This document shows, in pieces, positions 3,640 to 29,404 of a DNA stretch of 64,000 bases (its first letter is position 1; the number at the start of each line of letters is the position of its first letter). The notes under the pieces are model-generated. The model was given only the letters and a program-made list of their open reading frames with translations, made no database searches and was not told the origin of the DNA. The DNA lies in NCBI RefSeq assembly GCF_003044185.1, contig NZ_PYYB01000001.1, positions 1,054,001 to 1,118,000 on the forward strand. Reading direction: 5' to 3'. Source of the stretch: Paraconexibacter algicola (GTDB lineage: Bacteria > Actinomycetota > Thermoleophilia > Solirubrobacterales > Solirubrobacteraceae). The position numbers and the translations under genes were made by a program.

Positions 3640-4566
3640 GTGCCCACACCGGTCGACATCCGCATCGCACGGACCATCCGCGACGGCGGCGGGATCGCGA
3701 CCCGCAAGGCGCTCCGCGCAGCCAAGGTGACCCCCGCGTCCCTGCGGCTGCGCCTGGAGGCCGGGACCCTCGTCGAGATCCACCACGACGTCTTCGCGTT
3801 CCCCCAGGACGAGCTCCAGCCGAGCACGGCGTTCCGCGCAGCGGTGCTCTCCTGCGGCGCCGGCGCGGCCCTCAGCCACGAGGCGCTCGCCGTCCACGCG
3901 GGGCTGCTGCGGCGCCGGGACGGGGAGGGGCTCCCGCTGCACGTGACCGTCCCGCGGTCCCGCAACCCGCGCCGTGCGACGCTCACCGTCCACCGGATGG
4001 ACCTCGCCCCGCACGAGCGGACCGAGATCGGCGGGCTCCCGTGCACGACGGTGGCCCGCCTGGTCTACGACCTCGCGCGGGCCGGCTGGGCCCGACGGCG
4101 GCTCGAGCGGATCCTGGACGAGGCGGCGTTCCGGGGCTCGTGGCGACGGTGGGAGCTCGAGCGCATCCTCGAGCAGGCCGCCGACCACCCGGGTGCGGCC
4201 GTCCTGCGCGCGGTGCTGCGCGAGCACGTGCCCGGCACCACCCGGACCGCGAACGAGCTCGAGGAGCGGCTGCTGGCGATCTGCGACGCGCAGGGCTGGC
4301 CCCGCCCGATCTGCCAGCAGCCCGACCGCCTCCCGGACGGGTCGCGCATCTTCCACGACTTCCTGTGGCCGGCGCTGCGGCTGATCGTGGAGACCGACGG
4401 GGACCGCGGTCACCGGACCCGCAGGCAGCGCCGACGCGACCAGCGCCGGGACGACGCCATGCGGCGGCGCGGGTACACCGTCGTGCGACTGCGCTGGTAC
4501 GACGTGTTCGAGCGGCCCGACCGGGTCGTCGCGCTGCTCGCACCGCTGCTCGACGTGCGTCGGTGA
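3640..4566 (+). CDS. AbiEi-like winged-helix protein with DUF559/Vsr-type endonuclease-like C-terminus
   Basis: 308 residues from GTG 3640. The N-terminus (about 8-60) looks like the winged-helix seen in type IV antitoxin AbiEi proteins: IRDGGGIATRKALRAA, then a LEAGTLVEIHHDVFA wing. The middle contains HVTVPRSR and VHRMDL, typical of large actinobacterial DUF559-like families. The C-terminus has NELEE (207-208), HDFLWP (D240) and ETDGDRGH (E251, D253), arranged like a PD-(D/E)XK nuclease core, then RRDQRRDDAMRRRGYTVVR. No toxin gene adjoins it. A paralogue lies at 24634-25647, with 51 of 54 identical bases around LAICDAQGWPRPICQQPD. Function is unproven: these genes occur alone and may be defence or selfish elements. 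The gene sits between two hairpins. Confidence 0.72.
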   Translation: MPTPVDIRIARTIRDGGGIATRKALRAAKVTPASLRLRLEAGTLVEIHHDVFAFPQDELQPSTAFRAAVLSCGAGAALSHEALAVHAGLLRRRDGEGLPLHVTVPRSRNPRRATLTVHRMDLAPHERTEIGGLPCTTVARLVYDLARAGWARRRLERILDEAAFRGSWRRWELERILEQAADHPGAAVLRAVLREHVPGTTRTANELEERLLAICDAQGWPRPICQQPDRLPDGSRIFHDFLWPALRLIVETDGDRGHRTRRQRRRDQRRDDAMRRRGYTVVRLRWYDVFERPDRVVALLAPLLDVRR

Positions 4567-4574
4567 CCGGCGCT

Positions 4575-4614
4575 GGGAACCCCACGGCGCGGTCGACCCG
4601 CGCCTGGGGTTCCC
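4575..4614. terminator. Strong bidirectional terminator hairpin
   Basis: GGGAACCCCA (4575-4584) pairs perfectly with TGGGGTTCCC (4605-4614); inside, GGCGCGG pairs with CCGCGCC across one bulged base. It lies between two convergent genes (stops at 4566 and 4627), so it can end transcription from both sides. Confidence 0.75.
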
Positions 4615-4626
4615 GGGGCCCGGGCG

Positions 4627-23015: not shown

Positions 23016-23064
23016 GCCATTGGGCGCGGTCACCGAAAGTGGGGAGCAGTACGCTCCACTCTCC

Positions 23065-24576
23065 ATGACCGCGCTCGATCCCCGCACCCCCGTCCTCGTC
23101 GGCGCCGCCCAGCTGACGCACCGACCGGCGGACGGCCCGCCGCCCGCGCCGCACCTGCTCATGACCGACGCGGCGCGCGCCGCGATCGCCGACTGCGCCG
23201 CGTCGATCGGGGCGGACGCCCTGCTCGGCAAGGTCGAGGTCGCCGCGTCGATCGACCTGTTCTCGTGGCCGGTCCCGGATCCCGCGGCCGTGATGGCGCA
23301 GGAGCTCGGGATCAGCCCGCGCGCGACGGTCCGCACCGCGCGCGGCGGCAACGGCCCGATCGCGCTGCTGGGGGACCTCTCGTCGCGGATCGCGGCCGGG
23401 GACCTCGACGTCGCCCTGATCTCGTTCGGCGAGTCGTTCAAGCCGTTCATGGCCGCGGTGCGCGGCGGCACCTCGACCGGCTGGCCCGAGCAGGGCGAGG
23501 ACGTGACGCCGACCTGGTCGGTCGGCGCCGACAAGGAGCCGTCCAACGCAGCGGAGACGGCGGCGGGCCTGCTCGCGCCCGTCTTCTACTACCCGTTCTT
23601 CGAGCACGCCCTGCGCGCCGCCGCGGGGCGAACCCGGGAGGAGCAGCGCGCGCACGCCGCCCGCATCTGGGCGCGGTTCGCGCAGGTCGCGCGCGAGAAC
23701 CCCTACGCGTGGTCACCGGACGCCCCGACCGACCCCGACGTGCTCGGCACCCCGTCGGCGGACAACCGGCTCGTCAGCGACCCCTATCCCAAGCTGCTCA
23801 ACGCGAACATCTCCGTCGACCAGGCGGCCGCCCTGGTGCTGACCAGCGCGGAGGCCGCGGCGGCCGCCGGCATCCCGCGCGAGCGCTGGGTCGTCGTGCA
23901 CGCGACCGCGGGCGCCGCCGACCACTGGTTCGTCAGCGAGCGCTGGCAGCTCGACCGCTCCCCGGCGATCGCCGCCAACGGCCGGGCGGCGCTCGGGCAC
24001 GCGGGCATCGCGATCGACGACGCGGCGCACCTGGACCTCTACTCGTGCTTCCCGTCGGCCGTGCAGATCGCGGCGGGCGAGCTCGGCGTCGACCTGTTCG
24101 ACCCGTCGCGCGCCCCGACCGTCACCGGCGGCCTGACGTTCGCGGGCGGTCCGGCGAACGGGTACGTGCTGCACGCGCTCGCGACGCTCGTCGACCGGCT
24201 GCGCGCGGACCCGGCCGCGTTCGGGATCAGCACCGCGGTCGGCTGGTACCTGACGAAGCACGGCCTCGCCGTGCTCGGTGGCCCCGAGACGGTGCCCGCC
24301 CGCGCGTTCGCGCACCACGACGTGCAGGCCGAGGTGGACGCCCAGCCCCGCCGCGAGACGACCCACGGCGCCCCCGCCACCGCGACGGTCGAGACGCACA
24401 CCGCGCTCTACGACCACACGGGCGCGCCGACGATCGCGTTCGCCATGGGCCTCACACCCGACGGTCGCCGCGCCGTCGGCGGCTCGCAGGCCCCGGAGAT
24501 CGTCGAGGCCCTCACCGCCAGCGACCCGCTCGGCGTCGAGGCGACGTTCGACGGCGCCGGAGCGCTCACCCTGTAG
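23065..24576 (+). CDS. Thiolase-superfamily protein (acetyl-CoA acetyltransferase-like) lacking the usual Cys nucleophile
   Basis: 503 residues from ATG 23065, matching actinobacterial proteins annotated as acetyl-CoA acetyltransferase with an extra C-terminal beta-rich domain. Family features: VLVGAAQLTHRP start, IALLGDLSSRIAAGDLDVALI, LDLYSCFPSAVQIA and TFAGGPANGYVLHA (thiolase C-terminal glycine motif). At the place of the acylated cysteine the sequence reads RTARGGNGP (about 91-98), with no Cys, so classical thiolysis is doubtful; SCP2-like or lyase functions are possible. TACGCT lies nine bases before the ATG, overlapping an inverted repeat GGAGC-n5-GCTCC (23043-23057). It converges with the repeat-flanked AbiEi-like gene. 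Confidence 0.78.
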   Translation: MTALDPRTPVLVGAAQLTHRPADGPPPAPHLLMTDAARAAIADCAASIGADALLGKVEVAASIDLFSWPVPDPAAVMAQELGISPRATVRTARGGNGPIALLGDLSSRIAAGDLDVALISFGESFKPFMAAVRGGTSTGWPEQGEDVTPTWSVGADKEPSNAAETAAGLLAPVFYYPFFEHALRAAAGRTREEQRAHAARIWARFAQVARENPYAWSPDAPTDPDVLGTPSADNRLVSDPYPKLLNANISVDQAAALVLTSAEAAAAAGIPRERWVVVHATAGAADHWFVSERWQLDRSPAIAANGRAALGHAGIAIDDAAHLDLYSCFPSAVQIAAGELGVDLFDPSRAPTVTGGLTFAGGPANGYVLHALATLVDRLRADPAAFGISTAVGWYLTKHGLAVLGGPETVPARAFAHHDVQAEVDAQPRRETTHGAPATATVETHTALYDHTGAPTIAFAMGLTPDGRRAVGGSQAPEIVEALTASDPLGVEATFDGAGALTL

Positions 24577-24588
24577 CCCGACCGCCGA

Positions 24589-24627
24589 CTGCGCCGCAGC
24601 TCATCGGAATGGTGAGCTGCCGCGCAG
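24589..24627. repeat. 39-bp palindromic direct repeat, copy 1
   Basis: Identical over all 39 bases to 25580-25618. Each copy is itself a near-perfect palindrome: arms of 15 bases with one mismatch (inner CAGCTCA/TGAGCTG, outer CTGCG/CGCAG) around TCGGAATGG. In this copy the stem extends outward with GACCGCC (24580-24586) and GGCGGTC (24629-24635), reaching into the stop codon of the minus-strand gene. It also serves as a likely bidirectional terminator between convergent genes. The two copies bracket one AbiEi/DUF559-like gene. Confidence 0.9.
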
Positions 24628-24633
24628 AGGCGG

Positions 24634-25647
24634 TCACCGACGGCGGGGCCGCCCGAACCGCGCGCCGCGCGCGAGGAGCACCGGCCCGACCCGCGCCACG
24701 ACCACCGCCGGGCGGTGGAAGACCTCGTCCCACTGCGCGCGGACCACCTCGATCCCTCGCGCCCGCAGGTCGGCGTCGCGCTCGGCGTCGCGCGCCTGCC
24801 GGTAGGCGCCGGCGTGGCCGCGGCCGCCGTCGGTCTCTCCCGCCACGCGCAGGTCCGGCCACAGGAAGTCGTGGCGGATCCGGCGCCCGGACCGCAGGGT
24901 GTCCGGCTGCTGGCAGATCGGCCGTGGCCAGCCCTGCGCGTCGCAGATCGCCAGGAACGCCTCCTCCAGCTCGTTCTGCGTCCGGGTCGTCCCGGGCACG
25001 TGCCGGCGGAACGCCTGCTCGAGCACGGCGTGTCCGCGTTGCCCGCGGGTCCGGACGAGGAGCTCCTCGACCTCCCACGGCCGCCAGGACCCCTGGTAGG
25101 CGGCCTCGTCGATGAGCCGCTCCACGAACCGGGCGTCGCGCGTCGCGGCGAGCCGCAGCAGCAGCCGCGCGACGGTCAGACAGCGGACCCCGTCGTGCTC
25201 GACGACGTCCCGGTGGTCGAGCGTCCCGACGCGATGGACCGCGATGCCGGACCGGCGCGGGCACCGGCGCTCGCCGACGATCACGTGGACGCGGTCGTCG
25301 GCCGGCTCCTGGAACGTGATCAGCCCCCGGTGCTCGGCGCACGACCAGTCGGCGAGCACCGCGCCCGCCCCGCACGACAGGACCGCGGCACGGCGACGGA
25401 CAGCGTCCGGCAGGACGCCGAGGGCGAAGACGCCCGCGAACGGCTCGACGAGGCGGCCGTCACGCAGGCGCCGGGCCACGGCGTTGCGGTGGACGCCGGC
25501 CGCGCGCAGGGCGGCGGCGCTCGCCACGCCGCCCCCCGCGGCGATCACCGCGTGGATCGCCGGCCCGGCGTCGGCGCCTCTGCGCCGCAGCTCATCGGAA
25601 TGGTGAGCTGCCGCGCAGTCGCCGGCTGGGACGTCGGGGGCGGGCAT
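24634..25647 (-). CDS. AbiEi-like winged-helix protein with DUF559-type endonuclease-like C-terminus, inside repeat-flanked cassette
   Basis: 337 residues from ATG 25647. Similarity to the paralogue at 3640-4566 begins only around GPAIHAVIAAGGG, so the true start may be GTG 25548 (304 residues). With the ATG start, repeat copy 2 would encode part of the N-terminus. Domains: winged helix (VASAAALRAAGVHRNAVARRL), middle VHVIVGERR and VHRVGTLDHRD, and a C-terminal nuclease-like core with TQNELEEAFLAICDAQGWP, RIRHDFLWPDLR and GETDGGRGH, so D and E/D positions match the paralogue. The stop codon lies seven bases inside repeat copy 1. No toxin partner or transposase is present. Function is unproven; a mobile or selfish cassette is suggested by the exact bracketing. 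Confidence 0.72.
   Translation of the reverse strand: MPAPDVPAGDCAAAHHSDELRRRGADAGPAIHAVIAAGGGVASAAALRAAGVHRNAVARRLRDGRLVEPFAGVFALGVLPDAVRRRAAVLSCGAGAVLADWSCAEHRGLITFQEPADDRVHVIVGERRCPRRSGIAVHRVGTLDHRDVVEHDGVRCLTVARLLLRLAATRDARFVERLIDEAAYQGSWRPWEVEELLVRTRGQRGHAVLEQAFRRHVPGTTRTQNELEEAFLAICDAQGWPRPICQQPDTLRSGRRIRHDFLWPDLRVAGETDGGRGHAGAYRQARDAERDADLRARGIEVVRAQWDEVFHRPAVVVARVGPVLLARGARFGRPRRR
25580..25618. repeat. 39-bp palindromic direct repeat, copy 2
   Basis: Exact copy of 24589-24627 in the same orientation, start-to-start distance 991 bases. Here the outer stem is GGCG ... CGCC rather than GACCGCC/GGCGGTC, so identity stops at the 39-bp boundary and the flanks differ. It lies at the 5' end of the AbiEi-like gene, within the frame if ATG 25647 is used. 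Confidence 0.9.
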
Positions 25648-25702: not shown

Positions 25703-27724
25703 TCACTCCTCTTCGAGGAGCTCCTGCACCGCCTCGACGACCGCGTCGGCGGTGATGCCGAACCGCTCGAGCAGCTCGCCGCCCGGCGCGGACGCGCCGA
25801 AGTGGTCGATGCCGAGCGGGATGTCGGCGTAGCGCTCCCAGCCGATCGTGACGCCGGCCTCGATCGACACCGTCGGCAGGTCCCCGGGGAGCACGTCCTC
25901 CTGGATCTCCTCGTCCTGCTCGTCGAACAGCTCCCAGGACGGCATCGAGACGACGCGCACGTGCACGCCCGCGGCGGCGAGCTTGTCGGCGGCCTCCAGC
26001 GCGACGGCGACCTCGGAGCCGGTGGCGATGATCGACGCGGACTCCTCGCCCTCCGGCTCGCGCAGGACGTAGGCGCCGCGGGCCAGGCCGCGCGCGGACT
26101 CGAGCTTCTCGCGGTCGAGGATCGGCAGGTCCTGCCGGGAGAGGATCAGCGCGGCCGGGCCGTCGAGCTCCTCGAGGATCACGCGCCACGCCTCCGCGAC
26201 CTCGGTCGCGTCCGCGGGACGGATGACCGTGAGGCCCGGGATCGCGCGCAGCGACAGCAGGTGCTCGACCGGCTGGTGCGTCGGCCCGTCCTCGCCCACC
26301 GCGACGGAGTCGTGCGTGAACACCCAGGCGACGTTCAGCTCCTGCAGCGCGCTCAGCCGGATCGACCCGCGCATGTAGTCCGCGAACTGCAGGAACGTCG
26401 AGCCGTACGGGCGGACGATCCCGCCGTGCGCGGCGAGCCCGTTCACGGCGCCGCCCATCGCGTGCTCGCGCACGCCCCAGTAGACGTTGCGGCCGACCTG
26501 GTCCTTGGTGAACCGCTCGTCGTCGCCGCCGGGGAAGATCGTGGCGGTCGAGCCCGAGAGGTCCGCCGCGCCGCCGACCATGGTCGGCACGTGGCCGGCG
26601 AACGCCGCCATCACGGCCTTGCCCGCGGCACGCGTCGCCAGCTTCGGCTTGCCGAACGCCTCCGCGTCACCCGGCAGCACCTCGGCGAGCCCGGGCAGCG
26701 GCCGGCACGACCAGCCCGCGTCCCACGCGGCGGCCTTGTCGGCGTCGGCGGCCTTCATCGCCTCGAGACGCTGCTCCCAGGCCGCCCGCTCCTCGGCGCC
26801 CTTGCGGCCGGCCGCACCGGCGTGCTCGAGCACGCCGTCGGGGACGAGGAACTGGGCGTCGGGGTCCCAGCCCATGATCTCCTTGGTCGCGCGGATCTCG
26901 TCCTCGCCCAGCGGCGCGCCGTGGGCGCCGGAGGTGCCCTGCTTGTTCGGGGCCGGGTAGCCGATGATCGACTTCACGCGGATCAGCGACGGCTTCGCCG
27001 TCTCGGCCTGCGCCGCGGCGATCGCGGCCCGCAGCGCGGCGAGGTCGTTGGCGTCCTCGACGGTCTGCACGTGCCAGCCGTAGGACTCGAACCGCGCCGT
27101 GGTGTCCTCGTCGAACGACAGCGACGTCGGGCCGTCCAGCGAGATGTCGTTGTCGTCGTAGAGGTAGACGAGCTTGCCGAGACCGAGGTGCCCGGCCAGC
27201 GACGCGGCCTCGGAGGCGATGCCCTCCATGAGGTCGCCGTCGGAGACGATCGCGTAGGTGAAGTGGTCCTGGACCTCGCTGCCGAACGTCTCGCGCAGGA
27301 ACTTCTCCGCCATCGCGAGACCGACGCCGTTGGCGAAGCCCTGGCCCAGCGGCCCGGTCGTCACCTCGACGCCCGGCGTGCGCCAGCTGCCGTCCTCGCG
27401 CCGCTCGCGCTCGGGGTGGCCGGGGGTGCGCGAGTCCCACTGGCGGAACTGCTGGAGGTCCTCGACCGTCAGGTCGTAGCCGGCGAGGTGCAGCGCCGCG
27501 TACTGGAGCATCGAGCCGTGGCCCGCGCTCAGCACGAAGCGATCGCGGTCCGGCCAGTCCGGGTCCTGCGGGTCGTGCTTCATCACCTCCGCGTAGAGGA
27601 GGAAGGCCGCGGGCGCCATGCCCAGCGGGAGCCCCGGGTGCCCGGAGTTCGCCTTCTGGATGGCGTCCATGGACAGGGTCCGGATGGTGTCGATGGAGAG
27701 CTGGTCGAGATCGGCGGCGGCCAT
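25703..27724 (-). CDS. tkt: Transketolase
   Basis: 673-residue thiamine-diphosphate enzyme of the pentose phosphate pathway, swapping two-carbon units between ketose and aldose phosphates. Full-length family match: [23 protein letters not shown] at the N-terminus (split here), [25 protein letters not shown], the ThDP motif [14 protein letters not shown] ... YDDNDIS, the pyrimidine-domain [16 protein letters not shown], and [20 protein letters not shown] with the catalytic His region. TAGGGT lies seven bases before the ATG and overlaps the promoter box of the divergent crcB gene, only 20 bases apart, so it is probably leaderless. A hairpin terminator follows. Confidence 0.97.
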
Positions 27725-28498: not shown

Positions 28499-29404
28499 AT
28501 GACCGATATCGTGCGCACGCCCGAGGACCGCTTCGCGGGCCTTCCCGACTTCGACTACGCCCCCGAGTACTTCGAGACGCGCGAGGGTCTGCGGATCGCC
28601 TACCTCGACCTCGCGCCCGCCGGCGGCGGCGACGCCCCGGCGGTCGTCTTCCTGCACGGCGAGCCGACCTGGTCGTTCCTCTGGCGGCTCGTCTTCCCCG
28701 CGGTGCGCGAGGCGGGCTTCCGCTGCATCGTGCCCGACATGCCCGGCTTCGGTCGCAGCGACAAGCCGACCGACTTCGCCTGGTACACGTACGACCGCCA
28801 CGTCGGGGTGATGACCGAGCTGCTGGACCACCTCGACCTCACCGGCGCGACGATCGTCGTGCACGACTGGGGCGGCCCGGTCGGCCTGCGCCTCTACGTC
28901 GAGCAGGCGGCGCGGTTCGACCGCGCGGTGATCATGGACACCGGCCTTTTCACCGGGCACCAGAAGATGAGCGACGCCTGGAACGCGTTCCGCGGCTTCG
29001 TCGAGCAGACCGAGGACCTGCCGGTCGGCATGCTCGTCGCAGGGGGCTGCCTGACCCCGCCCCCCGCCGAGGTCGTCGCCGCGTACGAGGCGCCCTACCC
29101 GGACGCCGCCTCCAAGGCGGGCGCCCGCGCCTTCCCGCTGATGATCCCCCTGACCCCCGAGTCGACGGGGGCGGAGGCGGGCCAGCGCGTCCTCGCCGCG
29201 CTCGCGCAGGACGAGCGCCCGGTGCTGATGCTGTGGGCCGACCAGGACCCGATCCTCACCCCGGGCACGGGGAAGAAGTTCGCGGCCGCGATCGGCTACG
29301 ACGGCGAGCCCGACGTGATCGAGGGCGCCTCGCACTTCCTCCAGGAGGACCAGGGCCCGGCCATCGGCGCCCGCATCGCGCAGTGGCTCACCGCAGCGGG
29401 ATGA
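28499..29404 (+). CDS. Haloalkane dehalogenase, HLD-I type
   Basis: 301-residue alpha/beta hydrolase that replaces a halide with hydroxyl on haloalkanes. The signature VFLHGEPTWSFLWRLV (His53-Gly-Glu-Pro-Thr-Trp58) is the DhlA/DhmA-type oxyanion and halide loop. The nucleophile is Asp123 with halide-binding Trp124 (VVHDWGGP); Trp161 in the cap (DAWNAF) is a candidate second halide-stabilising Trp, as in HLD-I enzymes. Acid and His are in LWADQDPI and EGASHFLQED. It could also act on epoxides; only assays would tell. TAGGCT lies six bases before the ATG, with a palindromic operator candidate next to it. It overlaps the convergent GyrI-like gene by 17 bases. Confidence 0.88.
   Translation: MTDIVRTPEDRFAGLPDFDYAPEYFETREGLRIAYLDLAPAGGGDAPAVVFLHGEPTWSFLWRLVFPAVREAGFRCIVPDMPGFGRSDKPTDFAWYTYDRHVGVMTELLDHLDLTGATIVVHDWGGPVGLRLYVEQAARFDRAVIMDTGLFTGHQKMSDAWNAFRGFVEQTEDLPVGMLVAGGCLTPPPAEVVAAYEAPYPDAASKAGARAFPLMIPLTPESTGAEAGQRVLAALAQDERPVLMLWADQDPILTPGTGKKFAAAIGYDGEPDVIEGASHFLQEDQGPAIGARIAQWLTAAG

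Follow-up and report, generated by a model that had tools for sequence, protein, structure and literature searches.

We found that the AbiEi-like/DUF559 nuclease gene in a 64-kb stretch of the Paraconexibacter algicola genome (64,000 nucleotides, referred to here as the window) is bracketed by two copies of a long hairpin and that a hairpin, mostly of a different sequence, accompanies many homologues of this gene in other genomes of the same bacterial family. This association of gene and hairpins is well supported and statistically strong. The explanation that we consider probable is that these are recurrent units, each made up of an AbiEi-like/Vsr-like nuclease and its cognate hairpin, and that the nuclease spreads the hairpins in a manner like that of the RAYT transposases and REPs. 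The arrangement points to a mobile-repeat system of a kind that is undescribed. Bacterial genomes commonly contain small palindromic repeats, and RAYT transposases are the enzymes tied to them; if another nuclease family, unrelated to these, were linked to dispersed palindromes as well, this would show that such a mode of existence has arisen more than once.

The nuclease gene lies on the minus strand at 24634..25647 when read from the ATG at 25647 (337 aa), and the GTG at 25548, which gives a protein of 304 aa, is also a candidate for the start. Upstream of it is the transketolase gene tkt (25703..27724, minus strand), and on the other side is a thiolase-like gene (23047..24576, plus strand, start approximate) whose stop codon is 12 bases ahead of the core of hairpin copy 1. 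Copy 1 (24585..24631, plus strand; 39-bp core 24589-24627 with conserved feet CGA/AGG; 63.6 bits with model R1) is placed between the thiolase-like gene and the nuclease gene, both of which end there. Copy 2 (25576..25622, minus strand; 39-bp core 25580-25618 with feet; 67.2 bits with model R1) sits at the start of the nuclease gene, between it and tkt or within its first codons: with the start at ATG 25647 it is in frame at about codons 11-23, its core of 39 nt being equal to 13 codons, and with the start at GTG 25548 it is just upstream. That two identical 39-base direct copies bracket the gene had been claimed in the original prediction and was confirmed, as the cores are identical at 39/39 bases on the plus strand, at a spacing of 991 bp; in the further direct-repeat families listed for the surrounding 10-kb stretch (20 of 35) the copies are only 70-95% alike. 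The predicted hairpin with one mismatch was also borne out, both copies folding into a long hairpin that is interrupted by a single C.C mismatch (plus strand folding energies of 61-nt stretches, -46.7 and -43.6 kcal/mol; z of -7.9 and -5.7). The identity was said to end at the 39-bp edge, which holds for direct identity, but the conserved feet continue beyond it and are inverted between the copies. Two details were refined: six bases separate copy 1 from the stop codon of the gene (24634-24636), which had been placed seven bases in from copy 1, and the DNA similarity to the paralogue C1:923515 begins near 25544, at a distance from copy 2 of about 36 bp where about 20 bases had been given. Rfam gave three matches near the locus (E 0.34-0.84), far under the gathering scores.

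A paralogue in the window at 3640..4566 (plus strand, protein 51% identical) has no flank pair at the threshold given below and no strong start palindrome. Directly after its stop is a strong hairpin at 4569-4618 that is unrelated to the 39-bp family and for which no second copy was found in the sampled sequence of the own genome. The tkt genes of congeners are 70-72% identical to that in the window and have different downstream neighbours: neither the nuclease gene nor the thiolase-like gene was found downstream of tkt in six congeners (1.4-8 kb visible), and in the seventh no tkt match was found at E<=1e-100. On tkt itself, we observed that a hydrolase-like gene (28499-29404, named by eye) close to it keeps this neighbourhood in four of the six tkt-bearing congeners (loci L089, L090, L091, and L093), the other two tkt contigs being too short, and that the opposite side of tkt differs.

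Homologues of the nuclease gene were present in at least 79 of the 121 genomes sampled of the bacterial family, often several per genome. The flanks were examined in 90 homologues among the matches listed, including the paralogues of the own genome; as these were taken from the best-listed matches, weaker homologues are not represented, and four that were too short left 86. A repeat common to both flanks with a score of at least 20 was found in 12 of the 86, from 11 genomes and 9 genera, including the window gene. These twelve scored 20-52 whereas shuffles of their own flanks reached 16 at most, and 15 homologues beat all 40 of their own-flank shuffles where about 2 are expected. In control windows of matching geometry (20 regions of 12 genomes) the threshold was reached in 0/816 with a maximum of 19, and in control predicted genes in 0/137 with a maximum of 17 (Fisher 6.5e-6 compared to the homologues); the 64-kb window used as a control had a maximum of 18 in 277 windows, in a scan phase that misses the pair of the window gene itself. 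The threshold of 20 was fixed after the scores had been seen and the controls were drawn later than the twelve positives. Most of the shared flank repeats are hairpins, about 40-55 bp long, which differ between genes; a resemblance was observed only for the repeats of L104 and L113. The better-matching orientation of the pairs is direct in eight and inverted in four of the twelve. With softer scoring and 700-bp flanks, a control of 720 windows had a 99th percentile of 22.4 and a maximum of 35.5, and only 7 homologues were above every control. This scoring adds a strong case, L186, and weaker ones that include two own paralogues, C1:923460 (L151) with an inverted pair and C1:1945811 (L153) with two upstream copies and one downstream; since the tail of the control also grows, L186, L151, and L153 were left uncounted. 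The top soft-scoring control, L220:6640-8191 in genome G025, has about 1.3 kb with repeated palindrome-like sequence on either side. In a quick tree of the 90 proteins, 13 bracketed genes (the twelve and L186) were scattered and required 13 changes, as in shuffles, and bracketing is therefore a recurrent property of the gene family and not of one clade. At the threshold, 74 of the 86 homologues are without a flank pair.

At the gene start, in nearly the same band as that from -45 to +9 given below, 34 of 89 homologues carry a long palindrome compared to 21 of 1042 control genes (Fisher 9.5e-27), the starts of the control genes being predictions and those of the homologues being read from the sequence; a palindrome anywhere from -100 to +60 was found in 70 of the 1042 control genes. 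The hairpins concentrate within 25 nt before the position of query residue 25, where 34% of 83 genes have one, while the other bins have 0-6%, and in the band from -45 to +9 a hairpin was found in 31 of the 83 genes compared to 0.2% of shuffles. Copy 2 in the window occupies this position and the window gene is among the 34. In five of the 34 the nearest upstream in-frame stop is inside the palindrome or at its edge. A strong start palindrome is missing in 55 of the 89 homologues, and homologues that lack a flank pair or a strong start palindrome may have had one that decayed or may never have had one. In the set as a whole the similarity of the palindromes did not follow protein identity (rho 0.02, Mantel 674/2000), giving no sign of coevolution, and clearly more similar palindromes were found only in four pairs with protein identity of at least 60%. 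The place of these palindromes raises the question of whether they serve autoregulation only, the start palindrome being an operator or a site of translational control, the other copies being regulatory or decoy sites, and nothing being mobile. AbiEi antitoxins are described as binding inverted repeats in their own promoter and thereby repressing themselves (PMC7319586), the start palindrome is the commonest feature that we observed, and in 22 of the 34 an in-frame ATG or GTG is inside it, a count that has no chance expectation behind it. We regard this explanation as rather unlikely because it leaves unexplained the similar copy at the gene end, the copies scattered along the edges of further genes, and the conserved residues of the nuclease domain.

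In the own genome (4.74 Mb) the 39-bp hairpin family has nine copies, found by a degenerate search and then by a covariance model made from the nine; of 3735 first-look candidates 150 were scored, so diverged copies could have escaped. The model recovers its nine copies at E values of 3e-13 to 2e-10, and its remaining matches are opposite-strand readings of the same nine places and two weak ones with E values of 0.05 and 0.11. When aligned, the copies have the frame 5'-CGAGTGCGC nn CAGCTCACC loop GGTGAGCTG nn GCGCAGAGG-3', in which 23 of 47 columns are invariant, feet included; the stem has 16 pairs and the feet are CGAG / CCTC. In the nine copies 88.9% of cells are paired, and two-sided changes were no commoner than in shuffles. 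According to our own gene calls, from a caller that was trained on the codons of this genome and also served to predict the control genes, and to reading of the sequence, all nine are intergenic or overlap the edge of a gene. Four are between convergent genes (window copy 1, C1:643916, C1:1162971, and C1:1287788), C1:18591 is 9 bp past a stop codon, C1:277083 is 32 bp from a stop codon, C1:2237960 is between divergent starts, and C2:39978 is in a region where the gene calls are weak. At C1:1287788-1287834 (L128) the hairpin overlaps the end of the predicted gene and has the stop codon inside it. No tRNA genes were found in seven of the loci, and by eye there is no target duplication at the nine copies.

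The many copies at gene ends, several of them between convergent genes, are what would be expected of ordinary intrinsic terminators, or of chance hairpins in a GC-rich genome, and occurrence at many unrelated intergenic sites as an ordinary terminator family was what the original prediction had named as counting against itself. In part this is the case, since other intergenic copies do exist, but the family was found in only one of the 121 genomes searched, no T-run is present in the 12 nt beyond either foot of any of the nine copies, the copies have sequence in common over 47 bp that include the unpaired feet, and some copies are between divergent genes or at gene starts. This makes an origin as terminators or by chance highly improbable. 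The seven copies outside the window form no second close pair; for nine random places, the probability of any two lying within 1.1 kb of each other is 0.016. The covariance model, with stricter filters, found no copy in 7 congeners at E<=0.001 and no second genome with a hairpin family among these and 113 further genomes of the family. Single model matches in G079 and G060, one each with E values of about 6e-4, were not taken as a second family. No copy of the hairpin or of its 19-mer core was found in plasmids, phages, and viral contigs, and six exact matches of the 19-mer core in genome contigs lack the arms and were taken as chance. Half-site matches with 0-1 mismatch, seven in all, were inside known copies, and with up to three mismatches there were 66 compared to 47 for the reversed pattern. 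One with two mismatches, C6:95265-95283 (L142, own genome), is in a stretch that we read as 23S rRNA and is probably due to chance. A MITE with an autonomous partner was considered, and there was no sign of an autonomous element that carries these ends.

Dispersal was examined in eleven genomes with one composite query of the twelve hairpins, the counts being of matches listed and including the bracketing copies. Together with the search of the own genome, further copies in the same genome were found for 11 of the 12 bracketing repeats; for L194 (G057) there was none among the matches listed. The number of places listed was at least 31 in G001, 17 in G011, 15 in G025, 8 in G024, 7 in G049, 6 in G014, 4 in G050, and 2 in G119, and G063, which has two bracketed genes, has two different dispersed families in at least 9 and at least about 19 places. 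Among the matches listed the hairpins stay in their home genome, except for one match in G050 to the L113 hairpin. In G001, G011, G014, G024, and G049 the sole close pair among the matches listed is that around the nuclease gene; the probability of a pair 400-1300 bp apart by chance is 0.155 in G001 and 0.005 in G014. A second hairpin pair, about 1 kb apart, was observed in G025 (C1:99657-100855). For two own paralogues, the hairpin was found once more in each case in 579 kb of sequence from the own genome. The context of 20 single copies was examined, and in G011, which has four of them, the gene caller gave no genes. Of the other 16, ten were outside predicted genes and six overlapped an edge by 23 nt at most; where both neighbours were called, 9 of 15 were between convergent genes. 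Among 32 loci of homologues with no flank pair, most of which have little same-genome sequence, the start region occurs a second time in the sampled genome sequence for two, L185 (G090) and L193 (G026), and queries from within the genes gave no copy. L193, which is not among the 34 and has an ATG in its inner loop, was recovered with a narrower probe as well, and the same kind of probe gave nothing clear for seven G090 palindromes in 420 kb (best match 9e-4 over 17 nt, shuffled queries 0.003).

Two other explanations have to be weighed against this dispersal. A cassette made of the gene and its end hairpins could move and then be deleted by recombination between direct hairpins, leaving one hairpin behind as a solo LTR is left; the direct orientation that is the better one in 8 of the 12 pairs and the single copies that are the rule elsewhere among the matches listed are consistent with this. 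We think it unlikely, since there are nine own copies compared to one bracketed gene of that hairpin type, and since tight clusters of three hairpins in about 0.3 kb in G025 and of five in about 0.4 kb in G063 have no room for a gene, from which hairpins seem able to multiply alone. The cluster in G063 (C1:3529635-3530028) is directly upstream of the bracketed L113, as if the hairpins can multiply locally. The hairpins could alternatively be an independent REP-like family that is spread by another enzyme and for which nuclease genes are tolerated landing sites. Repeats of this kind are on record, as the CGTC-type REP elements are described as having no known transposase (PMC3733652), and the search for a Y1 transposase covered the own genome only. 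In that genome Y1_Tnp (PF01797) was not found by a search that matches 5 of 14 control genomes. Landing without regard to the gene is also hard to reconcile with flank pairs at the threshold in none of the 816 windows and 137 genes from genomes of the same family, with two genes in one genome that have two different families, and with a start palindrome at a fixed place in the gene. We therefore consider an independent family quite improbable.

The conserved feet CGA..AGG are inverted between copies 1 and 2 though the cores are direct: in the frame of the feet the cores agree at 28/37 positions, and at 37/37 once one of them is flipped, the core of copy 1 being the one flipped relative to its feet. 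The copies L021 and L022 behave likewise, 24 positions agreeing unflipped compared to 30 with one flipped, and the loop variants of single copies in G001 look flipped by eye. Inversion of the spacer and homogenisation of the arms via template switching at inverted repeats have been described in yeast (PMC8604942), and template switching would explain how two copies whose feet are inverted have come to read as a direct repeat. So would a conversion in which one copy was overwritten by the other.

The protein was examined in alignment A2, which has 16 chosen proteins (11 of the 12 bracketed ones, own paralogues, L186, and L168); L174 was left out because its reading frame runs on. E199, D231, E242, H249, and D258 are invariant in the 16 proteins and D244 is nearly so, and they may be mapped onto the letters EDxHD. 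Pfam AbiEi_4 (counted at E<=0.01) and DUF559 were each found in 15 of the 16, the window protein being under both cut-offs (21.9 bits compared to the 25-bit cut-off for AbiEi_4), and the PADLOC AbiEi profiles matched all 16 over the N-terminal winged helix and the region following it. NCBIfam DUF559 matched three A2 proteins, the window protein not among them, and in PHROGs one family of unknown function was matched. The C-terminal domain has profile matches in PDB to 3hrl (2.2e-8) and to the homing endonuclease I-Bth0305I, 3r3p (7.7e-4). D231, E242, D244, H249, and D258 are matched in 3hrl, while only E242 and D258 are identical in 3r3p in an alignment that leaves E199 uncovered. The structure model was weak overall (pLDDT 60.8); with Foldseek, 3r3p (probability 0.98, E 0.13) and 3hrl (probability 0.75, E 0.43) stand among many chance matches and there was no match at E<=0.001. 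Protein relatives were found neither on plasmids at E<=1e-6 nor on viral contigs. The gene product is a probable DNA-cutting enzyme.

If the nuclease does spread the hairpins, as we infer, the unit may work as follows. Each nuclease would be encoded together with a cognate quasi-palindrome, mostly of 40-55 bp, that lies around the start codon in many homologues and has a second copy at or past the gene end in some, the remaining copies being spread through the same genome, for the most part along the edges of genes. The palindromes differ from gene to gene, even within one genome. The protein, probably a dimer, would bind its own palindrome through the winged helix, and binding at the 5' copy would limit its own expression. 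The nuclease domain would nick or cut DNA at palindrome sites or at targets, and repair or replication would then copy the hairpin to new places, a spread of the kind thought to occur for RAYT transposases with REPs but by an unrelated, homing-type nuclease. The original prediction of an element that is REP-associated or driven by its nuclease was a good lead in view of the recurrence of the unit beyond chance, the dispersal of the hairpins, and the domain related to homing endonucleases, although neither movement nor an empty site nor a cassette moved as a whole was observed, and the seven other copies form no second close pair. A more tentative proposal is that of a new class of mobile repeats resident in the genome, for which AbiEi-like/Vsr-like nucleases with a long palindrome as their start region serve as RAYT-equivalents, spreading private hairpins by homing-type cut-and-copy while the start hairpin throttles expression. 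If true, this would name an enzyme behind REP-like repeats where bacteria have no RAYT, and it would assign a function to much of the DUF559 family that is uncharacterised. A nuclease family tied to dispersed palindromes would also offer a testable role for multi-copy genes labelled as a domain of unknown function or as AbiEi antitoxin, and would be a warning against reading such genes as toxin-antitoxin or defence genes.

Rickettsial palindromic elements, like other palindromes inside genes, are translated in frame within a protein, and copy 2 would be alike in this if ATG 25647 is the start; the difference is that here the palindrome is at the same position in many homologues. In the open PMC literature, the titles and abstract openings listed gave no link of DUF559/AbiEi-like nucleases to palindromic repeats, and such a link may be in print elsewhere. 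The unit fails defining tests of both REP/RAYT and AbiE toxin-antitoxin. In the accounts of REP/RAYT systems (REPINs/BIMEs) the gene of the enzyme is flanked by two palindromic repeats, and REPs are dispersed in intergenic DNA near 3' ends in families private to a lineage (PMC2817692, PMC3116915, PMC3733652). The flanked DNA-processing gene, the repeats dispersed at gene edges, and the lineage-private families are alike here. A strict RAYT/REP system was rejected, as the own genome has no Y1 transposase by our search and the flanked gene is AbiEi-like/DUF559: unlike in RAYTs, the enzyme is an AbiEi-like winged helix with a Vsr-like nuclease and not a Y1/HUH transposase. Other differences are a copy number of 9 where REPs usually have more than 100, a hairpin at the gene start in many homologues, and feet that are CGAG / CCTC and not GTAG. 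The repeats that flank a RAYT gene are inverted; here the orientation is mixed, eight of the twelve pairs matching better as direct and four as inverted repeats, and in the own pair the cores are direct and the feet inverted. CCTC is a listed variant of CGTC, but the CGTC repeats are described with a stem of 8-9 bp compared to 16 pairs here (PMC3733652). The AbiE type IV toxin-antitoxin systems have in common with the unit the AbiEi-type N-terminal region, but here the neighbours are a thiolase-like gene and transketolase and not an AbiEii toxin, and there are an extra nuclease domain and dispersed copies of the palindrome. The EDxHD homing endonuclease I-Bth0305I and the Vsr/DUF559 superfamily have a related catalytic domain, by profile and weakly by fold, but here there is no intron, the N-terminal region is of the AbiEi type, and the palindromes are dispersed. 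In a review, I-Bth0305I is assigned to the EDxHD enzymes and described as forming a dimer on a target nearly 60 bp long (PMC3943268), and a target of this size fits the length of 40-55 bp of the palindromes that accompany the nuclease genes.
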